A DNA stretch of 5,338 bases from a bacterium (GTDB lineage Bacteria; AUK180): the NCBI GenBank assembly GCA_030622125.1, contig JAUXGM010000143.1, forward strand, positions 1 through 5,338. Reading direction: 5' to 3'. Shown here in pieces: positions 182-4,849 of this stretch; the stretch's first letter is position 1; the number at the start of each line of letters is the position of its first letter. The position numbers were made by a program, and so were the translations under genes. The notes below the pieces were generated by a model. That model was not told where the DNA came from. It was given only the letters and a program-made list of their open reading frames with translations, and did no database searches.

Positions 182-1048
182 ATGAAAAAAGCACAGATAG
201 GAATTATTGGCGGAAGCGGACTTGGAAACCTTCCCGGAATGGAAAATATTGAAAAGGTAAATATTGATACGCCTTATGGCAAGCCTTCTGCACCTATAAT
301 AATTGGAGATATTCAGGGAAAAACAATCGCTTTTTTGCCCAGACATGGAAATGGACATACAATACTACCGACAGAGATCAATGTTAGAGCAAATATATGG
401 GCATTGAAATTACTTGGTGTGAAAAAGTTAATATCCGTATCGGCAGTCGGCTCAATGAAAGAAGAGATACCACCGAGAGATGTTGTCATACCGGATCAGA
501 TATTTGATAGAACAAAATCTCGGGTAAATACCTTATTCGGCAGGGGGATTGTTGTTCATATTCCTTTTGCAGAGCCATTTTGTCCGAAAATGAGAAGGCT
601 TGCAGGGGATGTCTGCGATGAACTCAATATCAAACATCACAAAAAAGGGACTTATGTTTGTATTGAAGGACCTCAATTTTCCACAAAGGCGGAATCAAGG
701 ATCTATAGGCAGTTGGGCGTTGACATCATTGGTATGACTGCAATTCCGGAAGCGAAATTAGCTCGTGAAGCAGAGATGTGTTATGTTACAATTGCATTAT
801 CAACCGACTACGATGTATGGAAGGAAGGTGAAGAGGTCTCTGTTGAAAAGGTACTTGAAAATATGAGAGTAAATATTATAAGTGCAAAAAAAATTGTAAG
901 TGCAATGGTGGAAAAGATAGATGTAAATGAAGATTGTAGTTGTCATCATACATTATCAGGGTCGGTTCAAACTTCCTCTGAAAAAATAGACTGGAACAAT
1001 CCTGAAATAAAGAGAAGATATAAAATATTCTTTCCTGATAAATACTAA
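182..1048 (+). CDS. mtnP: S-methyl-5'-thioadenosine phosphorylase
   Basis: This cytosolic enzyme should cleave 5'-methylthioadenosine (a by-product of polyamine and other SAM-using pathways) with phosphate to give adenine and 5-methylthioribose-1-phosphate. The 288-residue length is normal for the PNP/MTAP (phosphorylase family 2) fold. Visible motifs are GGSGLG at 10-15, the phosphate-site RHGNGH at 54-59, SVSAVGS at 85-91, EGPQFST at 162-168, GMT at 184-186, and STDYD at 207-211. The two Asp of STDYD (D209, D211) match those that recognise the 6-amino group in adenine-specific MTAP; guanosine/inosine-specific PNPs have Asn in this region. That favours MTAP over PNP. A C-S-C motif at 252-254 matches the C-terminal CXC of thermophilic/archaeal-type MTAPs. 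AGGAG lies 6 nt before the ATG, confirming the start. The gene has its own promoter and seems monocistronic, or it reads through a short repeat into the next gene. An adenosine or inosine phosphorylase side activity cannot be excluded. Confidence 0.93.
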   Translation: MKKAQIGIIGGSGLGNLPGMENIEKVNIDTPYGKPSAPIIIGDIQGKTIAFLPRHGNGHTILPTEINVRANIWALKLLGVKKLISVSAVGSMKEEIPPRDVVIPDQIFDRTKSRVNTLFGRGIVVHIPFAEPFCPKMRRLAGDVCDELNIKHHKKGTYVCIEGPQFSTKAESRIYRQLGVDIIGMTAIPEAKLAREAEMCYVTIALSTDYDVWKEGEEVSVEKVLENMRVNIISAKKIVSAMVEKIDVNEDCSCHHTLSGSVQTSSEKIDWNNPEIKRRYKIFFPDKY

Positions 1049-1105: not shown

Positions 1106-1690
1106 TTGGTTATTAATTTTGTAGATGATTTAATTCGCCTTGAACTACCGATAACATTTATTGATTTCAAGGAAAAATTATCGGGTTTCAAGAAATATTT
1201 TATTGAAGAATATGAAAAGAAAGTTCTTTACTACCTTTCAAAAGATGATATTAAACAACTTGTTTATACTACGGAAAAGATAAATTTTGCAGTTGAAAAT
1301 ATCAAGATCATTGAAGATAAGATAAGATTTGTTTTGAGAAAATTCAAAAAAAAATTCTTGAACTTAGAACCTGATTTTGTTATCTTTTTTGGCTTTTTTT
1401 CGCCCGATGGATTTGTTATAAAAATTAAAAATAACTGGTATCCTACAATCTGTCTTGATCGTTTTTTTGATCTAAGAAATATTGAAATGATCGCTTCACA
1501 TGAACTGGGACATTATATCTTAAAAAATATAAATTTTAAATATAGACCTGAAAAAGAAGAGATATTTGCAAATTATCTTTCCACCATAATTCTTGAAAAA
1601 GATACAAATACTGTTTTTTCAAACGGAAAGCCGATAGAAACAATAAATAATGAAGATAAGAAAAAAATCAATAGTTTTTTGAACCTATAA
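1106..1690 (+). CDS. putative HExxH zinc metallopeptidase, family unclear
   Basis: A 194-residue protein whose one clear signature is HELGH at 132-136 in the context IASHELGHYIL, the usual zincin helix: two His as zinc ligands and Glu as the general base. A Glu-rich helix 15-20 residues later (EEIFANYLS, 151-159) could supply a third ligand, E152 or E151, as in gluzincins and ImmA/IrrE-type (M78) peptidases. The N-terminal 85 residues look helical and charged; a hydrophobic strand (FVIFFGFFSPDGF, 91-103) precedes the motif, a layout also seen in DUF2268-like proteins. There is no signal peptide or membrane segment, so it is probably cytosolic. The only usable start in this frame is TTG at 1106, with no good Shine-Dalgarno site; an in-frame ATG at 1091 is followed two codons later by TAA. 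The coding part is otherwise open and in typical codon use. The protease fold is likely; the substrate and exact family are unknown. There is no neighbouring XRE-type regulator, as ImmA would have. Confidence 0.7.
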   Translation: MVINFVDDLIRLELPITFIDFKEKLSGFKKYFIEEYEKKVLYYLSKDDIKQLVYTTEKINFAVENIKIIEDKIRFVLRKFKKKFLNLEPDFVIFFGFFSPDGFVIKIKNNWYPTICLDRFFDLRNIEMIASHELGHYILKNINFKYRPEKEEIFANYLSTIILEKDTNTVFSNGKPIETINNEDKKKINSFLNL

Positions 1691-2749: not shown

Positions 2750-2762
2750 AAATTAATTATTT

Positions 2763-2767
2763 GGAGG
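2763..2767 (+). promoter_or_regulatory. ribosome binding site fixing the start at 2773
   Basis: GGAGG sits 5 nt upstream of the ATG at 2773. An upstream in-frame TTG at 2761 overlaps this site and would put the Shine-Dalgarno sequence inside the gene, so it is not the start. Confidence 0.75.
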
Positions 2768-2772
2768 TAGTT

Positions 2773-4155
2773 ATGAAAAAGTATTTTTTCTTTGTTCTGT
2801 TTTTTAGTGCGATCTTGATATTTGCATCAGAAATTGATAAAAAAAATGATGTGAATCGTGAGAAAAAATTTGAGGATGTTCGTGTTACCGAAATTAATTT
2901 TGCGGGAGGAGATACTGTCAAGATCGAAGGTTTTGAGAGCCCAATCTATTTAAAAGGCAATATGAAATATTCTACTATTGATAAATTTACTTTTAATGGT
3001 GAAATAAAATTCAATGTTGATAGAAGCGGCAGATTTCCACTTAATAAACTTCTTGAAATGATAGTAAAATCCAAAGATAAGTTAAGTTCTTTATCCGATA
3101 TTACCTTGAAGATAAAAAATTCCGAACCGATAACAATAACAGTAAAGGATAAAAAATACAGTCCAAAAAAGGAAAAAGAATTTCTTGTTTATACACTACT
3201 TTCTAAGGATACCTTTGAAAATGATATTTATTTTAATGTTCTTGCTCCGCAGGAAATAAGTATCCAAACGATAACTTTTGATTGGAGCAAGGATATTGAG
3301 TTAAAGCCATCCGAAAAAACCATTGATTTTAAACCTCCGGCAATTGATTTTAAAGATGAAGAAAAATTTATTGAACTTACTGTTTTTTTTGGTAAGGAGA
3401 AAAATATCAAGGATGTAGGGGTATTGGATACAAATTTTACAAAAGAAGAAGAAATTGCTTTTGTAAATGCAATAAAAAAGGGAACAGTTTCAGAAAATGT
3501 TAAAGCAGACAAAAAAAATATTCTTGCTTTCAGATACAGTAATAAAATAGCAAATGAAAAAAGGAAAGCAGAAAAATTATCTAAGAAAAAAGAGGGTACA
3601 ACGATTACAATTGGGGGGGAGAGTATAAAAGTTGAATCAATAAAAAAAGGCGGTAAGAACCCGGGACCTGAGATAGAGGGATTGGACCTTGATAAGATGA
3701 AGACAACGGATCTTATCCATCTCCTTATTGATTCCCCGATTGATGTTACAAACGATAATATTATTGTGCATAAACTTGTAGACAGGGGAAAGAAGGTTAT
3801 ACCGGAGCTTATCAAAGTTACGAATATAAAGACCTTTAAAGGAAGAGGTTATTCTGCATGGGCGCTTGCATTTGTTATTAGAGTAAATGGTGATGTTAAA
3901 GGTGATCAGGGAACGATCCAATTATGTAAACTCTTAAAGGATAGAAACCGTTATGTTAAAATGCTTTCTGCTTCCGGACTTAACGGTATAAACGACAAAA
4001 GAACGATCTATCCTCTGATAAAAAATTATAAATCCTCTATTGGAAATTTTAAAATAACACTTAAAACATTGACGGATAAATGGTTCAAAAGTAAGAGAGA
4101 AGCAAAGAAATGGTGGAAGAAAAATAAGGACAAATACCCCGCACAGTTTAAATAG
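2773..4155 (+). CDS. exported protein of unknown family with HEAT-like C-terminus
   Basis: I do not recognise this 460-residue protein. It starts with a clear signal peptide: MKK, a hydrophobic run YFFFVLFFSAILIFA (4-18), then a likely signal peptidase I site around ASE (18-20), followed by a charged segment. There is no lipobox Cys. Residues about 35-210 look rich in beta strands (for example ITLKIKNSEPITITV) and contain a short repeated IDFK phrase (184-187, 191-194). Residues 255-300 form a basic, low-complexity linker. Residues 303-460 look helical and HEAT/armadillo-like: GKKVIPELIKV (339-349) and YVKMLSASGLNGINDKRTI (394-412). The tail carries WFKSKREAKKWWKKNK (437-452), a Trp/Lys-rich ending. 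It is probably periplasmic or secreted, perhaps a binding or scaffold protein. ATG 2773 is preferred over TTG 2761 because GGAGG (2763-2767) lies 5 nt before it and the signal peptide begins there. The DUF62 gene follows after 16 nt. Confidence 0.8.
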   Translation: MKKYFFFVLFFSAILIFASEIDKKNDVNREKKFEDVRVTEINFAGGDTVKIEGFESPIYLKGNMKYSTIDKFTFNGEIKFNVDRSGRFPLNKLLEMIVKSKDKLSSLSDITLKIKNSEPITITVKDKKYSPKKEKEFLVYTLLSKDTFENDIYFNVLAPQEISIQTITFDWSKDIELKPSEKTIDFKPPAIDFKDEEKFIELTVFFGKEKNIKDVGVLDTNFTKEEEIAFVNAIKKGTVSENVKADKKNILAFRYSNKIANEKRKAEKLSKKKEGTTITIGGESIKVESIKKGGKNPGPEIEGLDLDKMKTTDLIHLLIDSPIDVTNDNIIVHKLVDRGKKVIPELIKVTNIKTFKGRGYSAWALAFVIRVNGDVKGDQGTIQLCKLLKDRNRYVKMLSASGLNGINDKRTIYPLIKNYKSSIGNFKITLKTLTDKWFKSKREAKKWWKKNKDKYPAQFK

Positions 4156-4171: not shown

Positions 4172-4849
4172 ATGAAATCACCATTTCTAATTGTTTTTTT
4201 AACGGATTTTGGAAATAAAGACGGATATGTTGGTATGTTAAAAGGAAGTATTTTAAAATATACAACTGATGTCGGATTTATTGATCTATCAAATGAGATA
4301 AATTCGTTTGACATAGAAAGCGGTAAATTTATTCTTTATAATTCATATAAGCATTTTCCAAATGGAACGATCTTTTTTTGTGTTATTGATCCGGGTGTTG
4401 GAACAGAAAGGGATATTATATTTGTAAAATCAGATGGTTATTATTTTCTTTCTCCTGATAACGGATTATTAGATTGGGCATGTTCAGAGCAAGAAAGTTC
4501 CTTTTATAAATTGAAAAGTGATTTAATATCAACATTTCAAGCAAGGGATGTTATGACACCGTTTTTAGGAAATTTTCTATTAAAGAAGATAAAACCAAAA
4601 TTTGAAAAAAGAATATTTAAGGGACCAAAAATCATAGATAATATCAATGATGTAAGGAATTTCAAGATCATTCATATAGATAAATTTGAAAATCAGATCA
4701 CTAACATCAAAAATGAGGTCAATCTGATATCACTTGAATATAAAGGGAAAAAATATTATCCGATCATTTCATACAGTGAAAAAACTGAAAAAAATAGATT
4801 GATACAGGGATCAAGCGGGTTTTGGGAACTTGCCGGTCCCTTATTTTAG
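4172..4849 (+). CDS. DUF62/SAM hydroxide adenosyltransferase homologue, altered active site
   Basis: Members of this family hydrolyse S-adenosylmethionine to adenosine and L-methionine; they are relatives of the bacterial fluorinase and chlorinase. Family motifs seen: LTDFGNKDGYVG (10-21), DPGVGTER (73-80), SPDNG (94-98), a TFHGRD-equivalent reading TFQARD (121-126), the C-domain HIDKFENQITNI (168-179, usually DRFGNLITN) and GSSGFWELA (213-221). D73 and R80 fit the Asp and Arg of the known Asp-Arg-His triad, but the His position is Q123. At 225 residues it is shorter than the usual 255-280 or so; it ends just after the GSSGFWELA strand, where homologues continue through a Gly/Ala-rich tail. 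Whether it is still a hydrolase is therefore open: it may bind SAM without hydrolysis, or use water differently. There is no Shine-Dalgarno site before the ATG, but the N-terminal strand begins at once, so the start is firm. It lies 16 nt behind the exported-protein gene (probable operon) and overlaps the convergent TPR-like gene by 9 bp. Confidence 0.88.
   Translation: MKSPFLIVFLTDFGNKDGYVGMLKGSILKYTTDVGFIDLSNEINSFDIESGKFILYNSYKHFPNGTIFFCVIDPGVGTERDIIFVKSDGYYFLSPDNGLLDWACSEQESSFYKLKSDLISTFQARDVMTPFLGNFLLKKIKPKFEKRIFKGPKIIDNINDVRNFKIIHIDKFENQITNIKNEVNLISLEYKGKKYYPIISYSEKTEKNRLIQGSSGFWELAGPLF
4824..4847 (+). terminator. weak candidate intrinsic terminator inside the DUF62 gene end
   Basis: GGGAAC (4824-4829) pairs with GGTCCC (4835-4840) with one A-G mismatch and a 5-nt loop, followed directly by TTATTTT (4841-4847). 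A GC-rich stem then a U-rich run stands out in this AT-rich window. It lies within the last DUF62 codons, as expected if two convergent genes overlap and leave no intergenic space. The stem is short and imperfect, so the call is tentative. Confidence 0.3.

Follow-up and report, generated by a model that had tools for sequence, protein, structure and literature searches.

In the DUF62 protein PH0463, residues D68-R75-H127 form a triad that may activate water (PMC4859513), and a review describes this His-Arg-Asp triad as strictly conserved in DUF62 proteins, where it activates water (PMC10491745). The physiological job of these proteins is itself disputed, (R,S)-SAM hydrolysis having been doubted (PMC12120602). 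A DUF62-family gene in the 5,338-nt stretch of bacterial DNA analysed here (contig JAUXGM010000143.1, GTDB lineage AUK180; the whole stretch is hereafter called the window) encodes Gln in place of the triad His, and raises the question of what such a family member has become: a hydrolase still, a protein turned to another use, a decaying copy, a halogenase, or a product of faulty sequencing.

The gene is the last complete forward gene of the window and the single DUF62 gene of a 2.08-Mb, 96% complete genome; its features are collected in Table 1. The original prediction correctly assigned the protein to DUF62, the N-terminal domain of the family scoring above its curated Pfam cut-off. Translation and alignment with PH0463 also agree with its reading of TFQARD in place of TFHGRD: HMMER alignments to 1wu8 set D73, R80 and Q123 opposite D68, R75 and H127, so that the D-R-H triad of the canonical SAM hydroxide adenosyltransferase is incomplete, with Asp and Arg present and His exchanged. 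The motif had been placed at 4532-4552; its start is right, its end one codon too far, since 4552 belongs to V127. The (R)-SAM hydrolase models of NCBIfam, which are equivalogs with narrow cut-offs, score the protein at 87.5 bits (NF058624, cut-off 350) and 82.4 bits (NF053629, cut-off 470). A histidine elsewhere in the protein might have filled the vacant site, as the same prediction recognised. The protein has just two, H61 and H168, in columns where 8 and 57, respectively, of the 178 members have His; since neither column is one of conserved His, no other His visibly occupies the active site.

Table 1. Features of the DUF62-family gene, in window coordinates.
Feature	Position	Strand	Remarks
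DUF62-family gene	4172-4849	+	225 aa and TAG stop; start 16 nt past the preceding same-strand ORF
SAM_HAT_N domain	4190-4564	+	residues 7-131; 140.4 bits, Pfam cut-off 26.3; E=4.6e-41
Asp73 codon (GAT)	4388-4390	+	triad Asp (PH0463 D68), kept
Arg80 codon (AGG)	4409-4411	+	triad Arg (PH0463 R75), kept
TFQARD motif	4532-4549	+	residues 121-126; stands where TFHGRD is expected
Gln123 codon (CAA)	4538-4540	+	triad His position (PH0463 H127)
Ala124 codon (GCA)	4541-4543	+	Gly position of TFHGRD
SAM_HAT_C domain, truncated	4664-4834	+	residues 165-221; profile positions 2-65 of 84; 18.6 bits, cut-off 25.5
Protein end	4829-4849	+	6 residues past conserved Glu219; last loop and strand of the family missing

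How unusual the exchange is was judged from 154 distinct DUF62 proteins of some 390 diverse genomes. Four divergent proteins (L003, L134, L156 and L162), unalignable at the motif, were excluded from the counts. Of the remaining 150, 137 carry His and 13 another residue: 5 Asp, 4 Gln, 3 Glu and 1 Arg. Some 9% of the members sampled are therefore without the His, nearly all of them retaining Asp and Arg, and the equivalents of Asp73 and Arg80 are present in 28/28 alignable Gln, Glu or Asp variants. A maximum-likelihood tree of 174 proteins, built with the two motif columns omitted, calls for at least 12 changes between His and non-His states, and well-supported branches force 5 of these; this set was enriched around three variants and its 12 changes are not a frequency, for which 13/150 is the fairer figure, itself drawn from a genome sample rather than the whole family. 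Replacement of the triad His has recurred many times in bacteria; the residue is not strictly conserved. We found no report of this recurrence in the papers searched, mostly outside subscription journals.

The original prediction matched the Gln-Ala pair to neither class, hydrolase or fluorinase; in the survey the exchange is not exceptional, with Gln, Glu or Asp standing for His in a number of unrelated lineages. TFQARD itself recurs in a full-length protein of an unrelated genome (G316), TFEARD in nine of the species read in family f98, TFQGRD in genomes G266 and G152, and TFDGRD in family f68. Within the small phylum of G316 alone, the orthologues switch among QA (1), QG (4, one of them QGK) and HG (4), the HG or QG proteins being 50-58% identical to the TFQARD query. 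L056 (QG) and L053 (HG) are 62-63% identical to each other. The window genome and those labelled G003, G316, G102, G369, G152 and G266 each have a single DUF62 match. The window protein is a variant of a known family, one of the recurring cases in which a residue held to be strictly conserved was lost. Such natural variants, close HG/QG pairs included, allow the role of the His to be tested directly, and with it the physiological job of DUF62.

Three further observations concern the same site. Relatives of the G102 protein (L177, L178 and L179) carry TFEAYG or TFEGYG with Asp-Arg kept, possibly a stepwise change of the active site within one family. Family f196 (L047, L184 and L186) shows the reverse loss: in TFHARD the His is kept, and the column of the triad Arg holds Ala or Glu. 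PDB entry 22uy is titled as the R89A mutant of MJ1651; in the aligned chain, Gln occupies the place of the triad Arg.

The nearest relative found for the window protein came from our sample of its phylum, seven genomes of which five are in its family: the only orthologue found in that family, from G003, is 50% identical and has TFEARD, Glu-Ala at the same two positions. A clade strictly of Gln-Ala proteins, which the original prediction proposed looking for, did not appear in the sample. Homologues from two genomes of the same class (G005 and G006) are 37-40% identical, have SFHGRD and are full length. The f98 TFEARD proteins (G102, G369 and further species) and the G316 TFQARD protein resemble that of the window in their Gln/Glu-Ala pair, in Asp-Arg and in being single copies; unlike the window clade, they have a full-length C-terminal domain, and they lie apart from it in the tree.

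Variants appear to be of two kinds. L050 and L056, both TFQGRD, depart from 41 near-invariant positions of the family solely at the His, and a plain His to Gln exchange therefore looks tolerated without other change to the active site. The Gln/Glu-Ala clades look to have diverged further. The median number of deviations among these positions is 1, compared with 11 in the window protein, 8 in its G003 orthologue and 10 in the two f98 proteins of the set; measured from root to tip, the window and f98 clades rank with the longest paths of the tree, and the stem of the former is 0.72 long, where the median inner branch is 0.12.

The more distinctive feature of the window protein, and one that went unmentioned in the original prediction, is not the replaced His but the loss of its C-terminus, which it has in common with the G003 protein. 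Beyond the last conserved Glu the former has the residues listed in Table 1 and the latter 4, whereas all other complete members among the 154 proteins have at least 23 (median 26); one further short row, L112, is a match at a contig edge. The SAM_HAT_C match breaks off at the same profile position in both, against positions 77-84 in the other members tested; the G003 protein, at 28.7 bits, still passes the cut-off that the window protein does not reach, and other homologues score 58-76 bits. The segment missing after Glu219 reads IAvnqGsAaerLGlkvGdkVev in the family consensus. No frameshifted remnant of it was found downstream of the stop in any of three frames, in either the window genome or G003.

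What this loss might mean can be gauged from the fluorinase FlA, in which Ser269 and Arg270 grip the carboxylate of methionine, and Arg277 and Ala279, just past the corresponding strand, contact adenine (PMC1282579). S214 corresponds to FlA Ser269; counting by sequence spacing from this shared Ser, the adenine contacts map onto G222 and L224, within the last four residues of the window protein, and in the G003 protein fall at its end and past it. By this mapping the Ser on the methionine side survives, and what has been lost, the loop and last strand, would lie on the side of adenine. An AlphaFold2 model built from 69 family rows (mean pLDDT 91.9; an alignment of two rows gave 41.5) predicts a DUF62 fold that is intact except for the last strand. 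It matches DUF62 hydrolases over nearly its full length (VIA-align, Z 19.6-21.6, 204-220 aligned residues), the best being 2zbv (Z 21.6), 1wu8 (Z 20.9) and 2wr8 (Z 20.6). Chlorinases and fluorinases follow at Z 18-19.4, and no unrelated fold exceeds 7.1. Having been built with the family alignment, the model is biased towards the family fold. The short-tailed clade would represent a natural minimal version of that fold.

With the (R)-SAM hydrolases PH0463, MJ1651 and StDUF62 (PF01887 and PF20257) the window protein has in common its N-terminal domain and overall fold, the Asp and Arg of the triad, and Asp12, Asn174 and Ser214 as equivalents of SAM contacts. It differs from them in His to Gln and the following Gly to Ala, in the early end of its C-terminal domain, and in H41N and G173E, both among its deviations at near-invariant positions. 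The window and G003 proteins both retain D12, D73, R80, D170, F172, N174, S214 and E219, and D16, N215 and S269 of FlA, at positions equivalent to kept residues, contact SAM (PMC1282579, PMC4859513, PMC3999930). The reading that we prefer, and hold with belief and doubt in about equal measure, is of a diverged DUF62 protein that binds SAM or an adenosyl compound and may still hydrolyse it by way of Asp73-Arg80, with Gln123 in the place of the His. Because the SAM-contacting residues and the Asp-Arg pair are retained, SAM or a related adenosyl compound is most likely still bound, and the pair would still handle the ligand or position water; Gln123 would take the hydrogen-bonding place of the His beside that water. 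Because Gln, Glu, Asp or Ala stands there in lineages that keep the Asp-Arg pair, the His may be a helper that hydrogen-bonds water, not an indispensable base. In the two-genome clade, loss of the loop and strand beside adenine probably changes affinity, rate or ligand preference. Against this reading count the changes at 11/41 near-invariant positions and the missing adenine-side segment.

The same changes could have accompanied a change of use, and after the loss of its His and C-terminus the protein might bind SAM, SAH, adenosine or another nucleoside unsplit, or another ligand altogether. We regard this as possible, and clearly less probable than the preferred reading. His, Gly124, H41, G173 and the last 20 or so residues have been lost jointly; both the short and the Glu-Ala clades evolve faster; in f98 the motif drifts on to TFEGYG/TFEAYG; and DUF62 is dispensed with in 3/5 genomes of the family, though MTAP (S-methyl-5'-thioadenosine phosphorylase) is present in all. 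It has to contend with the retained SAM-contacting and Asp-Arg residues, and with QG variants that otherwise look canonical. The long paths and the long stem of the short clade fit altered function no less well than retained catalysis. A broader version, in which the His-less lineages, the short-tailed clade above all, are distinct adenosyl binders without water-based hydrolysis that arose several times independently from a hydrolase fold, we consider rather unlikely; if it were true, such proteins would be sensors, scavengers or enzymes with another nucleophile.

A copy degrading on its way to loss would also account for an accumulation of changes at near-invariant positions, which in the window protein exceeds that of every protein aligned at the motif except L163. 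The gene is present in the window genome and G003 and missing from the other three genomes of the family; because MTAP is found in all five (the other four copies being 70-79% identical to that of the window), these gaps argue for true absences. The reading frame, on the other hand, is intact, and the truncation and Ala124 common to both proteins are most simply older than their split. In the aligned codons of the window and G003 genes, 35/41 comparable fourfold sites differ, which is near saturation, and the share of differences is 42% at codon position 1, 34% at position 2 and 71% at position 3. Since the fourfold divergence is high for an amino-acid identity of 50%, the protein is under purifying selection and is not the product of a decaying frame; that identity is below the 70% of MTAP and not far out of line with it. 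Decay of the window gene is unlikely, and the argument against it in the original prediction, drawn from the intact frame and other motifs, gains from the shared features of G003. Overall, what that prediction observed holds, and its interpretation is supported in part.

The fluorinase FlA and chlorinase SalL also lack the hydrolysis His, and have in common with the window protein their fold and the SAM-binding Asp, Asn and Ser positions. A SAM-dependent halogenase with a halide as nucleophile, its anion sitting in principle near Ala124, is nevertheless very improbable. The window protein keeps the triad Asp-Arg, and halogenases are without the triad (PMC10491745); the position two before D73 is the hydrolase-like Val71, not Thr or Tyr (mapping from PMC2515338), and at the halide site Val71 and Ala124 replace Thr80/Ser158 of FlA and Tyr70/Gly131 of SalL. 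The fluorinase model TIGR04507, whose cut-off is 400 bits, scores the protein at 24.6, and no halometabolite genes were recognised within the window. With its triad His gone and halide-site residues missing, the protein bears the signature of neither hydrolases nor halogenases, as had been noted. Sequencing or assembly error, conceivable in one contig of a 192-contig assembly, is refuted by the independent G003 orthologue, which has not His-Gly but Glu-Ala and the truncation too, and error would have needed two separate nucleotide changes in adjacent codons as well as a truncation, so that we give it practically no credence.

Searches beyond the family sample yielded little: a single-protein query of genome contigs found just two relatives, IMG/VR none, and plasmid and phage records weak matches only, at 40% identity or less. 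The neighbourhoods of the variants hold mostly housekeeping genes and no shared partner gene was found among them, and for this reason gene context gave no function. The ORF immediately upstream (2761-4155, +) encodes a 464-aa secreted-looking protein that matches no family; partial relatives occur in G005, G002, G001 and G004 and none in G003, which rules it out as a conserved partner of DUF62. The MTAP gene (TIGR01694, 317.9 bits, exceeding the cut-off) lies at 182-1048 (+), some 3.1 kb upstream of the DUF62 gene, and is not tied to it, being present in all five family members. Between them, at 1106-1690 (+), a 194-aa ORF with no Pfam or NCBIfam match carries an HELGH motif (SHELGHYIL) and is a candidate zinc peptidase.
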